This document shows, one piece after another, positions 35,791 to 40,717 of a stretch of 44,957 bases of DNA (position 1 is its first letter; each line of letters begins with the position of its first letter). A model generated the notes under the pieces. The model had not been told where the DNA came from, searched no databases, and worked only from the letters and a program-made list of their open reading frames with translations. Source of the stretch: Eubacteriales bacterium. GTDB lineage: Bacteria > Bacillota > Clostridia > Lachnospirales > Lachnospiraceae. Location: positions 1 to 44,957 of the forward strand of contig JAUNJN010000016.1 of the NCBI GenBank assembly GCA_030533235.1. Direction: 5' to 3'. The translations under genes were made by a program, and so were the position numbers.

Positions 35791-37521
35791 ATGGGAATTA
35801 TGAATGAATCGATCAAGAAACCGAAAAAGGTGAAGGTCGAATATGATGTCAAAGACAAAAAAGAAAAAAAGAAGCGCGGCAACAATATGTCACGAATCGG
35901 AAAGCGAAATATTATTCATTATGTGATTTTACTTGTGGTTGAGGCAATATATTATTATTTTGCGGTGCCATCCATCAATATACACCGACCGGGTTTTTGG
36001 ATGTGGCTTGCCGTAACACTTGTCGCAATCTGTATATGTTCGCTTGATCTTTCCGAAAAGGAAATCATTTTATTAACAAGACATCAAAAGAACGACAATA
36101 TTACACCGGTTGCAAAATATTCTTTTTTTGCGGCAATTGCATGTGTTGTAATCATGGTAATTGGAGGTATTATTTCTTCAAGGGTTTTTATGGCTTCCAA
36201 ATATGCGAATGTAATTAAGATCGAGGATGGAGATTTCAACGTTGATGTCCCGATGAGTGAAAATGTAAGTAACATCGCATTGATGGATACAGACAGTGCA
36301 CGTATTTTAGGTGAGCGTGCAATCGGTTCCTTGTCGGATGTTGTAAGCCAGTATGAGGTTAGTGATAACTACAGCACAATCGATTACAATGGAGTTCCGA
36401 TGAAGGTTGCTTCACTGGAATATGCAGGATTTTTTAAGTACATGAACAACAAATCACGCGGAATTCCCGGTTATGTGTTAGTCGATCCTGTAAAAAATGA
36501 AGCAAAGTATGTAGAGCTTAGCAAGCCGATCAAATATACGCCATCCGCATACTTTAATCATAACCTGCGCAGACATGTGCAAATGGCCTATCCAACCTAT
36601 GAATTTAACGGTTATTATTTTGAGCTTGATAATGAGGGAAATCCGTATTATGTATGCCCGGCGCTTAAGCCGAATGCAGGCTTGTTTGGAGCAAAGGATG
36701 TTTACCGCGTTGTTATATGTGATCCGTGTACCGGTGATTGCACTTCCTATGATGTAGAGGATGTACCGAATTGGGTGGACCGTGTGTATGACGGAAATCT
36801 TGCTTGTCAGAAATTTAATTGGAGCGGAATGCTTTCCGGAGGTTTTGTCAACAGTGTAATTGGAAATAAGGGTTGTAAGGTGACAACCGACGACTTTGGT
36901 TATAAGGTTATGGATGGTGATGTTTGGGTGTATACCGGTGTTACATCCGTAAACGGAGACCAGTCTAATATCGGATTTATCCTTATGAATTCAAGAACAG
37001 CGGAGAGTAAATATTTTGCTATCGCGGGTGCAGAGGAGCATTCAGCGATGTCTTCTGCACAAGGTCAGGTCCAGCATCTTGGCTATGTGGCATCGTTCCC
37101 GTCTCTGATTAATGTGGATGGAGTACCGACGTACATTATGGTTATGAAGGATAATGCCGGACTTGTCAAAATGTATGCGATGGTGAATGTTGAGAAATAC
37201 AACATTGTTGCAACCGCTGCAACGCAGAAGGAGGCGCTTGCAAGCTATCGTAAGCTGCTAGCCGAAAATGGAATCATAGAGGGGAGTGCATCCGTGTCTG
37301 ATGATACTCCAAGTAAGACTATCGAGGTAAAGGAAATCCGTTATATTACAATGGATAATGCGACGTATGTATATATTACGGATACAAATAAGAATGTATA
37401 TAAACAGAACTTTGCGGATGATGAGACTGCCATCTTTATCGAGGAAGGATCAAAGCTAAAGGTGTTCTATACCGAAGAGGATAATAATATTAAAACATTG
37501 ATTTCATTTGAATTGTTGTAG
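35791..37521 (+). CDS. Membrane-anchored protein with large ectodomain, unknown function
   Basis: A 576-residue protein that I do not recognise. A basic N-terminal cytoplasmic part (1-35, Lys-rich) is followed by three predicted helices (about 42-60, 68-88 and 110-132). After these comes a roughly 440-residue predominantly beta-strand domain that should lie outside the membrane. The domain contains CDPCTGDC (about 310-317) with three cysteines and repeated Tyr/Asn-rich strands such as YFELDNEGNPYYV. A conserved-looking C-terminal segment (VYITDTNKNVYKQNF) resembles an OB-like fold. AAGGAGA lies before the ATG at 35791, 11 bp after the fumarase beta gene. Nothing points to an enzyme; it could be an envelope assembly factor. 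Confidence 0.75.
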   Translation: MGIMNESIKKPKKVKVEYDVKDKKEKKKRGNNMSRIGKRNIIHYVILLVVEAIYYYFAVPSINIHRPGFWMWLAVTLVAICICSLDLSEKEIILLTRHQKNDNITPVAKYSFFAAIACVVIMVIGGIISSRVFMASKYANVIKIEDGDFNVDVPMSENVSNIALMDTDSARILGERAIGSLSDVVSQYEVSDNYSTIDYNGVPMKVASLEYAGFFKYMNNKSRGIPGYVLVDPVKNEAKYVELSKPIKYTPSAYFNHNLRRHVQMAYPTYEFNGYYFELDNEGNPYYVCPALKPNAGLFGAKDVYRVVICDPCTGDCTSYDVEDVPNWVDRVYDGNLACQKFNWSGMLSGGFVNSVIGNKGCKVTTDDFGYKVMDGDVWVYTGVTSVNGDQSNIGFILMNSRTAESKYFAIAGAEEHSAMSSAQGQVQHLGYVASFPSLINVDGVPTYIMVMKDNAGLVKMYAMVNVEKYNIVATAATQKEALASYRKLLAENGIIEGSASVSDDTPSKTIEVKEIRYITMDNATYVYITDTNKNVYKQNFADDETAIFIEEGSKLKVFYTEEDNNIKTLISFELL

Positions 37522-37548: not shown

Positions 37549-37577
37549 TTGACAACTGTGTATATACCGTATATACT
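37549..37577 (+). promoter_or_regulatory. Promoter of the YtrA/ABC operon
   Basis: Perfect TTGACA (37549-37554), a 17-bp spacer and TATACT (37572-37577). The spacer and -10 are covered by operator copy 1 (37561-37575), so a bound repressor would exclude RNA polymerase. Confidence 0.85.
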
Positions 37578-37616
37578 GTGCATATCAGATATATACGGTA
37601 TATATGCGCAGTTGTC
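37551..37616. promoter_or_regulatory. Nested palindrome with two operator copies
   Basis: TATATACCGTATATA (37561-37575) and its reverse complement TATATACGGTATATA (37590-37604) are each odd-centred palindromes of the form TATATAC-N-GTATATA. They sit inside an outer repeat GACAACTG (37551-37558) and CAGTTGTC (37609-37616), followed by TTTTTT. The sites probably bind the GntR/YtrA-type regulator encoded downstream. The same sequence can also act as a terminator for the upstream membrane-protein gene. Confidence 0.75.
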
Positions 37617-37623
37617 TTTTTTG

Positions 37624-37902
37624 TTGCATAGGATTCGGGTGTCAAAAGCCTCGTGTTCAATTTTGTCTCGGCAGATTGTACAAATAAAAATGTCTGAATG
37701 ACTTTTTGTGCTATGGAGATGAGACATAAAGAAGTGTGGAAGCTTTTGTTGAACACACTTCTTTGCATCAAGTGGCTCATCGGAATGGTTTGCACAACGG
37801 AATGAAGACATTTTTATTTGTACAATCTGCCGAGGCACTGTATCAACAGGGGCTTTTGACACCCGAATCTGTATAGGAAAGTGCTTCGCACATCCTATGC
37901 AA
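37624..37902. repeat. 279-bp inverted repeat, extended leader hairpin
   Basis: TTGCATAGGAT (37624-37634) pairs with ATCCTATGCAA (37892-37902). TCGGGTGTCAAAAGCC (37635-37650) pairs with its exact complement at 37851-37866. A 29-bp perfect arm (37667-37695) pairs with 37806-37834. Further in, GATGAG and CTCATC pair, and AAAGAAGTGTG pairs with CACACTTCTTT around the apex. A side hairpin GTGC-TTC-GCAC lies in the right arm. It would be transcribed as the 5' leader of the regulator mRNA, and no protein is evident in it. Confidence 0.88.
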
Positions 37903-37920
37903 TAAAAAAGCGATAATTGA

Positions 37921-37942
37921 TAGAATCTGTCGACGGATTCTA
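37921..37942 (+). promoter_or_regulatory. Small hairpin before the regulator's ribosome-binding site
   Basis: TAGAATC pairs with GATTCTA around TGTCGACG. It lies about 10 bp before AAAGGAA, so it may influence translation of the regulator. Confidence 0.5.
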
Positions 37943-37963
37943 CCGAAAAGAAAGGAATTATTC

Positions 37964-38335
37964 ATGAATATTATTATTAGTAACTCGTCAGGCGAACCGA
38001 TTTACGAGCAGATCGTTTCGCAAATCAGAGGGTGCATTTTACGTGGAGAATTAAAGGAAGGGGACGCTCTTCCGTCTATGCGTGTACTGGCAGCACAGCT
38101 TCGAATCAGTATTATTACGACGAAGCGTGCATATGAGGAGCTTGAGAAGGCCGGTCTTGTTGTAACAGTAGCCGGAAAGGGCTGCTTCGTTGGAAAGCAG
38201 AATACCGAAGCGATTCGTGAAAATTGTCTTCGTATAACAGAGCAACATTTACAGGCGGCGGTCACAGAAGCAAAGCAGGGAGGAATTTCTGTAGAAGAAT
38301 TACAGGAAATGATTTCGCTTTTGTATGAAGAATAG
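37964..38335 (+). CDS. GntR-family transcriptional regulator, YtrA type
   Basis: A 123-residue regulator with an N-terminal winged helix (about 1-75: PIYEQIVSQIRGCILRGELKEGDALPSMRVLA). It has only a short helical C-terminal tail, the layout of the YtrA subfamily that controls adjacent ABC transporter genes, often in response to cell-wall-active compounds. It probably represses its own promoter through the palindromes at 37561-37604. The ABC ATPase gene begins 14 bp after its stop codon. Confidence 0.93.
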   Translation: MNIIISNSSGEPIYEQIVSQIRGCILRGELKEGDALPSMRVLAAQLRISIITTKRAYEELEKAGLVVTVAGKGCFVGKQNTEAIRENCLRITEQHLQAAVTEAKQGGISVEELQEMISLLYEE

Positions 38336-38349
38336 CATGGAGGGTGCAA

Positions 38350-39231
38350 ATGGATTACACAAATGCAATTGAAATTAATCAAATAAAAAAGGTATACGAT
38401 GGTTTTACATTAGGTGCGCTTAGCTTCACAGTACCAAAGGGCTGCGTAATGGGCTTTGTCGGTCAGAATGGTGCAGGAAAAAGTACAACAATCAAAGCCA
38501 TTTTGAATGTAATCAAGCCAAATTCCGGAGACATAAAGGTTTTAGGGTTTGACAGTGTCACGGAAGAAAAACAGTACAAGGATGATATTGCGGTCGTTTT
38601 TGACAGTCTTCCGTTTCATGAAGGATTAAATGCCCGCAAGGTTGACCGAATATTAAAATCAATCTACAAAAAATGGAACAGTGAAGTGTTTTTTCATTAT
38701 TTAAAGCGCTTTAACCTGCCGGAGAAAAAGAAGCTTGGTGATTTTTCAAAGGGCATGAAGATGAAATTCCAGATTGCGACTGCGCTTTCGCATGATGCAA
38801 AGCTTCTAATCATGGATGAGGCAACTTCCGGACTCGACCCGGTTGTTCGTAGCGAGATGTTAGACGTTTTTATGGAATATATGCAGGATGAGGAGCATAC
38901 AATTCTTATGTCCTCCCACATTACAAGCGATCTTGAAAAAATCGCTGATTGTGTGACATTTATTCATAACGGACAACTTCTTCTGTCCGGTTATAAGGAT
39001 GAGATTATAGAAAATCATGGAATTATACAGTGTGAAGAGGCGTATATCAAGGAAATTGATGAAGCAGATATAGTAAGCATTCGCCGCAATGATTTTGGTG
39101 CTTCGGTCATGATTAAAAATCGCACGCAAACCGGGTCAAAATATGCCGGAGCGGTTGTCGATTCTGCATCGCTTGATGACATTTTACTTTTCTATGTACG
39201 TGGACTTACAGGAAGGGAGTGGCGTATATGA
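38350..39231 (+). CDS. ABC transporter ATP-binding protein (YtrB-like)
   Basis: A 293-residue ATPase. Walker A is GQNGAGKST (38-46), the signature is the variant FSKGM (132-136) seen in YtrB/EcsA-like exporters rather than LSGGQ, and Walker B is LLIMDEATSGLDP. The start at 38350 follows GGAGG; a GTG two codons earlier is less likely. The C-terminal 80 residues form an extra domain. It overlaps the next gene in an ATGA stop/start. With the two downstream membrane proteins it forms an exporter whose substrate is unknown. Confidence 0.94.
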   Translation: MDYTNAIEINQIKKVYDGFTLGALSFTVPKGCVMGFVGQNGAGKSTTIKAILNVIKPNSGDIKVLGFDSVTEEKQYKDDIAVVFDSLPFHEGLNARKVDRILKSIYKKWNSEVFFHYLKRFNLPEKKKLGDFSKGMKMKFQIATALSHDAKLLIMDEATSGLDPVVRSEMLDVFMEYMQDEEHTILMSSHITSDLEKIADCVTFIHNGQLLLSGYKDEIIENHGIIQCEEAYIKEIDEADIVSIRRNDFGASVMIKNRTQTGSKYAGAVVDSASLDDILLFYVRGLTGREWRI

Positions 39232-40013
39232 TCGGTTTATACAAGAAGGATCTCTATCTTAGCAAAAAGATGCTTTTCATTATGATTTCCACATTTGTAC
39301 TTCTTCTTGTATTCGGAATTCTTTGGAGATCGGCATATGATTATGGAAATCTCGCAAGCTTTCCGCCGGAGGATTTGGAATATGGAAAGCGTTCAAGTGA
39401 GAAGACATTTCCGTTTCTCGTTGCATTGTTGCTTGGATGTGAAAGTGCTTTTTTTACAGTAAATACGATTGAGATGGATATAAAAAGCAAATTTGTAATG
39501 TATGCATATTCGGGTCCTGTTTCTGATCAGGATAAGACAAAGGTTAAGGTATATGAACTATTAACAGCGTTTGTTGTTTGCAGTCTTGCAACTGTGATAT
39601 ATGGTTTGATTTTTGGAATATTATATGGTTTTTCGGATGTTGGAATCGGTATTCTTATCGGCATCGGAATAAGTGTCGTTATTAATTGTATGGCATGCAT
39701 CAGCGTTCCTCTTGCATACAAGCATAAAAATGCGGCGCGGGCAATATCAACGCCTGTCGCTGTTTTGATTGGTGGATTTTATGCCATCGGCATTCCGGTA
39801 GCGCTTTTCGGAGGAGAGGATGGTCTTGAGAGGTTTATTTCGAAGCTTGTTGCGCCGATTACAAAAGCAGGTGGGTTTAAACCATGGCTATCAAATAACT
39901 GGGTTTGGCTTGTATCTATCATTTTGATTGTACATGTTTTGTTTCTTGCGTGGGCATACTTTGCAACACTTCGTCAGGTAAAAAGGAGGGAACGTATATG
40001 TGGGGCATCTTAA
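39228..40013 (+). CDS. ABC-2 type permease subunit 1
   Basis: A 261-residue membrane protein with about six hydrophobic segments, including MLFIMISTFVLLLVFGILW near the N-terminus and VSIILIVHVLFLAWAYFATL at the C-terminus. Glycine-rich helices around residues 130-165 (FGILYGFSDVGIGILIGIGI) are typical of ABC-2 permeases in YtrA-type operons. The start overlaps the ATPase stop by ATGA, and its end overlaps the next start by 16 bp, so translation is coupled. Confidence 0.88.
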   Translation: MIGLYKKDLYLSKKMLFIMISTFVLLLVFGILWRSAYDYGNLASFPPEDLEYGKRSSEKTFPFLVALLLGCESAFFTVNTIEMDIKSKFVMYAYSGPVSDQDKTKVKVYELLTAFVVCSLATVIYGLIFGILYGFSDVGIGILIGIGISVVINCMACISVPLAYKHKNAARAISTPVAVLIGGFYAIGIPVALFGGEDGLERFISKLVAPITKAGGFKPWLSNNWVWLVSIILIVHVLFLAWAYFATLRQVKRRERICGAS

Positions 40014-40717
40014 AAAATGATTATTATACAAATACCAAAATGTTCCGGACCACAATCCTTCTTCTGCTTGGAATTTCGATTCCTTTTTATTTGAAAGTAT
40101 CTGCATCCGTATTAGAGGATAGTGTTACTTTGTTACTGTTAAATGCGGGATATTTCTTCATTTCATTTATTATGTTTATAATTATGGGAACACTGATTAA
40201 TAGTATAATAAAAGAAAATGAGCAGACAATCTGGCAGATGTATTTGGCAACAACAATAACAGGCAGAAAAGGCTATATTGCACAAAAATACATTTTATCG
40301 ATGGTATTCTATTTCATTACCGGTGCATATGCATGGTTTGTCAATGAAGTTGCGTATCAAATTAACGGCGTTTGTGTCAGCAAATCTTTCATCCTTTTGT
40401 TTGTGATTTTTTTTGTATTTCAGGCGGCTCTCGAGCTTCCGTGTATGCTTCGATTTGGAACGGTATATGGCGGATACATAAAGATCATTTTAATGTTTGC
40501 AGTTATATTCGGAATCATAATTTACGGATTGTACGGTAATATTAAACTCTTTAGCATGGAAAATCAGGACAAAATAATTGATTGGACGTTGCGTTTGATC
40601 GGTGAGGGACTAAACGGACCGACGGCAAAGAAGGGAATCCTCATTGCCGGAATCGCAACAACGGTAGTTTATGGAGCTTCATATGCTTTATCGTTGGCAA
40701 CACGAAAAAAGTTGTAA
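39998..40717 (+). CDS. ABC-2 type permease subunit 2
   Basis: A 239-residue membrane protein with about six predicted helices (for example TTILLLLGISIPFYL and YFFISFIMFIIMGTLI). The start at 39998 follows AAAGGAGGG inside the end of the preceding gene. It shares the N-terminal pattern of subunit 1 (short cytoplasmic start ending in K or Y residues, then a helix), so the two probably form a heterodimeric channel with the ATPase. It ends 40 bp before the tRNA-Ser promoter. Confidence 0.85.
   Translation: MWGILKNDYYTNTKMFRTTILLLLGISIPFYLKVSASVLEDSVTLLLLNAGYFFISFIMFIIMGTLINSIIKENEQTIWQMYLATTITGRKGYIAQKYILSMVFYFITGAYAWFVNEVAYQINGVCVSKSFILLFVIFFVFQAALELPCMLRFGTVYGGYIKIILMFAVIFGIIIYGLYGNIKLFSMENQDKIIDWTLRLIGEGLNGPTAKKGILIAGIATTVVYGASYALSLATRKKL

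Follow-up and report, generated by a model that had tools for sequence, protein, structure and literature searches.

Group IIC introns are retroelements that insert just behind intrinsic terminators, as does the MITE group described here, and they are without inverted ends or a target duplication of the MITE kind. Of the described systems, the IS1182 family and its member IS1272 appear to resemble this group in their DDE transposase group, short inverted ends and stem-loop targets, as far as excerpts of the literature on them show, although the element in the window itself carries no transposase. According to passages of PMC5678879, IS1272 replaces the stem-loop that it targets, and its four insertions near genes are all immediately downstream of them; here, in contrast, the terminator stays intact with a 7-bp duplication beside it. 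Other IS1182 relatives are presented in part of PMC12056078 as inserting with or without a duplication, at targets defined by sequence or by structure. The Correia/Nemis MITEs of Neisseria, as covered in sections of PMC10969869, likewise occur between promoter and gene and form an RNA hairpin, and their transcripts are cut by RNase III, a cleavage reported for these elements and, by analogy, only possible for the present one. Whereas Correia elements carry promoters, no outward promoter was found inside the window's MITE copy in a consensus scan. YtrA/PmtR-type GntR repressor operons likewise combine a short GntR regulator, an ABC ATPase, membrane genes and a promoter with operator-like palindromes. 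Portions of PMC6746942 deal with a YtrA repressor that covers the start site of its own transcript, and bacterial YtrA motifs are given there as typically 24 bp long, in contrast to the 15-mers found here. No description of the present MITE was found among open-licence papers on such MITEs, IS1182 or terminator targeting.

Here the analysis covered a stretch of 44,957 nucleotides, referred to as the window, from an Eubacteriales bacterium (Lachnospiraceae; GCA_030533235.1, contig JAUNJN010000016.1, positions 1-44,957, forward strand). In the labels below, G000 is the window's own genome, other G numbers are genomes of relatives, C denotes contigs of the own genome and L denotes loci. Sequence comparison indicates that a giant hairpin in the leader of a YtrA-type operon is very probably a MITE that landed downstream of the operator-covered promoter and ahead of the ribosome-binding site. 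An odd leader structure would thus be explained as a transposon insertion, with an empty site for comparison: the structure is confirmed, its origin as a transposon-derived palindrome is ordinary, and the interest lies in the target preference.

Promoter, operators and operon

The operon and its promoter region comprise the following features.

35791..37521, + strand: upstream gene, 576 aa, without Pfam or NCBIfam match, ending 29 bp before the palindrome
37549..37577, + strand: sigma-70-type promoter TTGACA-17-TATACT of the ytrA-like operon, from a consensus scan, identical over all 29 bases to that of the G031 ortholog
37551..37616, no strand: palindrome enclosing promoter and both operators, directly followed by T6 (37617-37622)
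37561..37575, no strand: operator-like 15-mer 1, TATATACCGTATATA
37590..37604, no strand: operator-like 15-mer 2, TATATACGGTATATA
37964..38335, + strand: YtrA/PmtR-like GntR regulator, 123 aa, from protein-family searches
38353..39231, + strand: ABC transporter ATPase, NCBIfam best model PmtA with a score below cutoff
39219..40013, + strand: ABC-2 membrane protein
39995..40717, + strand: second ABC-2 membrane protein

The short GntR protein, the ABC genes and the operator-like words at the regulator's own promoter point to a YtrA-type operon, an assignment made from these features and not from a dedicated YtrA subfamily model. The regulator scored 137.7 against the PmtR model, below its cutoff of 200, and is therefore not named PmtR.

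The initial annotation had placed the promoter inside a palindrome with two mirror-image 15-bp operators and proposed that a repressor covers it. The promoter agrees with the consensus at 11 of 12 positions, and the two 15-mers are 100% complementary, being perfect reverse complements of each other, so that the layout was recovered as proposed. The putative repressor coverage is supported by conservation, since operator-like words also occur upstream of the regulators of the genus. Of the 25 regulator genes scored, 20 had at least one word in the upstream region, as did 109 of 1250 order-1 shuffles; a pair of separate words no more than 60 bases apart was present in 12 of the 25 and in 5 of the 1250, counts obtained with a word list picked after the upstream regions had been seen. 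Some of the 13 genes without a pair appeared by eye to lie inside an operon. The 25 regions belong to the regulator and its genus relatives, the window's own gene included, and were scanned over 450 bases for the latter and 170 for the others; a match was obtained in 29 of 30 loci, four of which were removed before scoring, L042 as too short and L055, L057 and L059 for a late start or a weak match.

In both G000 and G031 the palindrome reaches beyond the operators and ends in T6. Together with T6 it passes the hairpin/T-tract terminator test described below; between 37400 and 38000 a simpler terminator scan gave no hit. The segment 37551-37622 may have a double role, driving the operon as its promoter and terminating transcription of the upstream gene, and the layout is the same in G031: a read-through transcript from upstream would hold the whole hairpin and could stop there, and one starting at the internal promoter would hold one arm only and would not.

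A palindromic MITE in the leader

The leader downstream of T6 contains the following features.

37625..37631, + strand: left copy of the 7-bp target duplication, TGCATAG
37632..37869, no strand: palindromic MITE, 238 bp, inverted ends GATTCGGGTGTCAAAAG, delimited by its copies and duplications
37870..37876, + strand: right copy of the 7-bp target duplication, TGTATAG, one mismatch
37877..37910, + strand: remainder of a short hairpin repeat split by the MITE, corresponding to the first hairpin in a multi-hairpin repeat of ~140 nt that is dispersed in the genome, and giving the outer 11-bp arm
37921..37942, + strand: small hairpin ahead of the ribosome-binding site

The giant hairpin spans 37624-37902, exactly 279 nt, and is near-perfect. 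Its perfect blocks measure 11 bp (37624-37634/37892-37902), 19 bp (37632-37650/37851-37869), 29 bp (37667-37695/37806-37834) and, innermost, 11 bp (37728-37738/37754-37764); the initial annotation had three of these right and had given 16 bp for the second, and the further small hairpin that it placed before the regulator's ribosome-binding site is present at 37921-37942. At the corresponding place G031 has a different short inverted repeat, CTAAAA/TTTTAG, possibly a conserved structure. The 380-nt leader folded at -167.2 kcal/mol, as compared with -90.35 (sd 5.55) for 100 shuffles (z = -13.85). Most of the ribosome-binding region is unpaired in this predicted fold. Rfam at gathering thresholds returned five tRNAs and nothing else over the whole window.

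The core of the hairpin has the properties of a MITE, being short (238 bp), non-coding, bounded by 19-bp perfect terminal inverted repeats, present in multiple dispersed copies and flanked by a fixed-length 7-bp target-site duplication, which carries one mismatch in the window copy. Inspection of 15 regions showed that the unit starts with GATTCGGGTGTCAAAAG and closes with its reverse complement. Two antisense open reading frames of 131 and 101 aa overlap it but extend beyond it and have no Pfam match. The own genome gave 34 matches to 37580-37870 when full, partial and reverse-arm matches were all counted, including near-full copies at C48 (96%) and C18 (95%) and many partial or single-arm matches elsewhere. 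With up to three mismatches allowed, there are 36 occurrences of the MITE end in the own genome as compared with 16 in G031, and one of the same pattern read backward in each. Only three of the 37 genomes of the genus, the own one included, match the MITE, and no match to the hairpin was obtained in the other 34. In the wider family, the 17-bp end at up to one mismatch was found in 34 of 299 sampled genomes, again including the own, and it occurs in at least 113 stretches of other genome contigs; the 80 of these that were listed are mostly from Lachnospiraceae, and the few others, such as Halovenus and Saprospiraceae, may be due to chance or misbinning. Phage and plasmid records contained no MITE match. 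Paired ends lie 38-315 bp apart except for one 1140-bp pair in L177, which by eye encloses an unrelated methyltransferase-like frame, and a 652-bp pair added by L203.

The 7-bp duplication was exact at 30 of 74 distinct end pairs, carried one mismatch at 13 and two or more at 31, in a set from which pairs had been removed if they lay close to a locus end, contained N, fell outside the length limits or had a common target; swapping flanks between sites gave 0.6% exact duplications and 2.5% at up to one mismatch. A hand list of 58 pairs (60 loci with pairs, minus L177, L180 and L184, plus L203) gave 24 exact duplications of 7 bp, 3 exact over 4-6 bp, 31 without an exact one of at least 4 bp and none longer than 7 bp.

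An empty site is provided by G031, the regulator of which is 99% identical to that of the window. The two loci align up to 37625 and again from 37938. The G031 leader keeps the promoter, the palindrome and T6, followed by 52 bases to the start codon, and is without both the MITE and the short hairpin repeat, so that the distance from the end of the -10 hexamer to the start codon is 93 bases as compared with 386 in the window. The outer arms of the 279-nt hairpin (37624-37631 and 37877-37910) are not part of the MITE and belong to the second dispersed repeat, which is found in the own genome and in G031. The MITE is nested inside this repeat, and the repeat would therefore have been inserted first.

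At 37636, 37668 and 37679 the left arm of the window copy agrees with its right arm, an agreement that the C48 and C18 copies do not show, possibly through template-switch correction of a quasipalindrome; the left-arm state at 37636 is also seen in other MITE copies.

A link to a transposase was obtained from G331, where ends GATTAGGGTGTCAAAAG enclose a 1049-bp element flanked by the exact 7-bp duplication TTAATAG and containing a truncated open reading frame with a DUF772 transposase domain (E 1.1e-9). The query used for this transposase (L200:885-1898, 338 aa) overruns the right end of the element at 1811, and only its first ~298 residues match other transposases. In G198, G317 and G267 the MITE end lies 122 bp before a relative of the truncated frame, the G198 copy being cut by the contig end and the other two being broken. 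Relatives at E 1e-40 were present in 19 of 397 family genomes; that of G311 has a stop codon in the matched frame, ends GATGCTGGGGTCAAAA and the 7-bp duplication ATGACAT. The own genome, G031 and G023 gave no match to the transposase. The common ends connect the MITE to the 1049-bp element with its truncated transposase and to broken or contig-cut ones, among which there was no intact autonomous copy; one may be missing from the own genome because its assembly is incomplete (87%, 67 contigs). The transposase is best described as IS1182-like: the DUF772 domain is clear, and the family models are weak, the truncated frame scoring 35.7 bits with the IS1182 model (cutoff 270) and 38.6 bits with the IS5 model, and a 538-aa relative (49% identical) having IS1182 as its best model at 126.4 bits, still below cutoff. 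Eight plasmid records showed resemblance to the transposase at no more than 37.7% identity, and none of 43 stretches of viral contigs fitting the transposase pattern was confirmed.

Insertion at the edge of terminators

The flanks of the 43 clean sites, defined as pairs with at most one mismatch in the duplication, gave the consensus TTTTTTAT-[7-bp duplication, often ending ATAG]-GAAA, in which the T signal is inflated because all sites were turned with the T-richer flank to the left. L103 and L112, which have a common left flank, were both counted. Sites and controls alike were then scored for a terminator, taken as a T-tract with an adjoining hairpin on either strand, using thresholds that were set after the folds of the sites had been seen and were identical for the controls. 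A terminator was found at 23 of 43 clean sites, as compared with 72 of 1560 intergenic positions drawn at random from these loci (Fisher p 1.5e-18) and with 219 of 4590 positions in a second control draw, and it was not found by the same test at the remaining 20 sites. Where a T-tract was present, a hairpin adjoined it at 23 of 35 sites, as compared with 219 of 1292 controls (p = 4e-10). As for a preference for palindromic targets, the terminator lies on one side (23 of 43), and the duplication fell in a palindrome arm at 10 of 43 sites as compared with 148 of 838 controls, so that a far-side palindrome was not supported as a target signal. Statistically, the MITE group favours positions at the 3' edge of intrinsic terminators, with a spacing of approximately T-tract - 2 nt - 7-bp target - GAAA.

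The MITE probably landed in this leader because the operator palindrome with its T6 resembles a terminator; since this palindrome passes the terminator test, the position is explicable without a regulatory purpose. A broader model is advanced tentatively, with confidence somewhat below even: the IS1182-like system would recognise the 3' edge of terminators (hairpin and T-tract in a near-fixed register, with a 7-bp duplication and the hairpin kept), so that palindromic MITEs would have spread among Lachnospiraceae, mostly reaching safe spots behind genes and now and then a terminator-mimicking operator palindrome, where they become giant leader hairpins. Through the terminator-edge preference, the question of how some DNA transposons reach harmless sites becomes testable.

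The initial annotation had set against a leader RNA a genome-wide family of copies with target duplications and no link to ytrA genes, which is largely what was found, the exception being an excess near the YtrA-like genes of the own genome. A full or partial MITE copy lies within ~120 bp upstream of three of the four listed genes (window 37964, C31:5510 and C50:23276), and the fourth, at C16:37482, is without one; two further weak matches lie outside this list. This excess may reflect chance or a target effect of the operator palindromes, and insertion bias offers no obvious explanation. A link to YtrA outside the genus was weak, with one locus (L113) among the 113 listed having a match to the three YtrA queries.

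Readings of the leader hairpin

The three origins considered in the initial annotation were a regulatory RNA, an RNase III substrate and an inserted palindromic element, and it is the last that is borne out, by the copies at unrelated loci, the duplications and the empty site in the nearest relative. Points against it are the mismatch in the window's own duplication, the 31 of 74 end pairs with two or more mismatches and the failure to find an intact autonomous copy. In the proposed sequence of events, a 238-bp non-autonomous palindrome, the ends of which match the IS1182-like (DUF772) group, would have inserted with a 7-bp duplication into the short dispersed hairpin repeat, itself probably already in place, behind the T6 that follows the operator palindrome. 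The operon, presumably transcribed from its promoter under its own repressor, would then have an mRNA leader of ~380 nt instead of roughly 90 nt. The MITE is probably tolerated, because little of the ribosome-binding region is paired in the predicted fold, and may at most affect mRNA processing; RNase III cleavage is a reasonable possibility because it is reported for Correia elements. The leader hairpin would on these grounds probably be incidental.

A different weight would fall on processing if the MITE had been co-opted, its transcript being cut by RNase III as in Correia/Nemis and the cut tuning the operon. The long near-perfect RNA duplex predicted for the leader and the Neisseria precedent in the sections of PMC10969869 dealing with it fit this reading, but the sister species G031 is without the insertion and the predicted fold keeps most of the ribosome-binding region accessible, and we consider co-option unlikely while giving it real weight.

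That the 238-bp core is a REP-like bidirectional terminator repeat and not a transposon product appears very improbable. Although the element is often beside terminators, has short palindromic pairs of 38-130 bp and contains no promoter-like site, the core is flanked by 7-bp target duplications, its inverted ends are common to a transposase-encoding element, and the T-tract is part of the flank and not of the MITE.

An evolved cis-regulatory leader RNA of the YtrA/ABC operon (attenuator, riboswitch or sensor) is scarcely credible despite the very stable fold and its place between promoter and regulator, since copies occur at unrelated loci, Rfam matched only tRNAs in the window, and a leader conserved upstream of ytrA genes with compensatory changes, as the initial annotation had envisaged, is not supported, given its absence from the orthologous G031 leader and the lack of any match in 34 of 37 genus genomes, although a match to the regulator, at its weakest to a distant GntR gene, was present in all 37. 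Caution is called for with strongly folded leaders of gut Clostridia, which can be repeats instead of riboregulators.

With the 238-bp core best read as an inserted MITE, the REP-like reading may hold for the second, multi-hairpin repeat. Six repeat-bearing loci gave no Rfam match. In the own genome as in G031, the ~140-nt repeat of consecutive hairpins (L063:1519-1660) immediately follows the terminators of genes, and five full-length G000 copies, the query among them, are 98-100% identical to the query.
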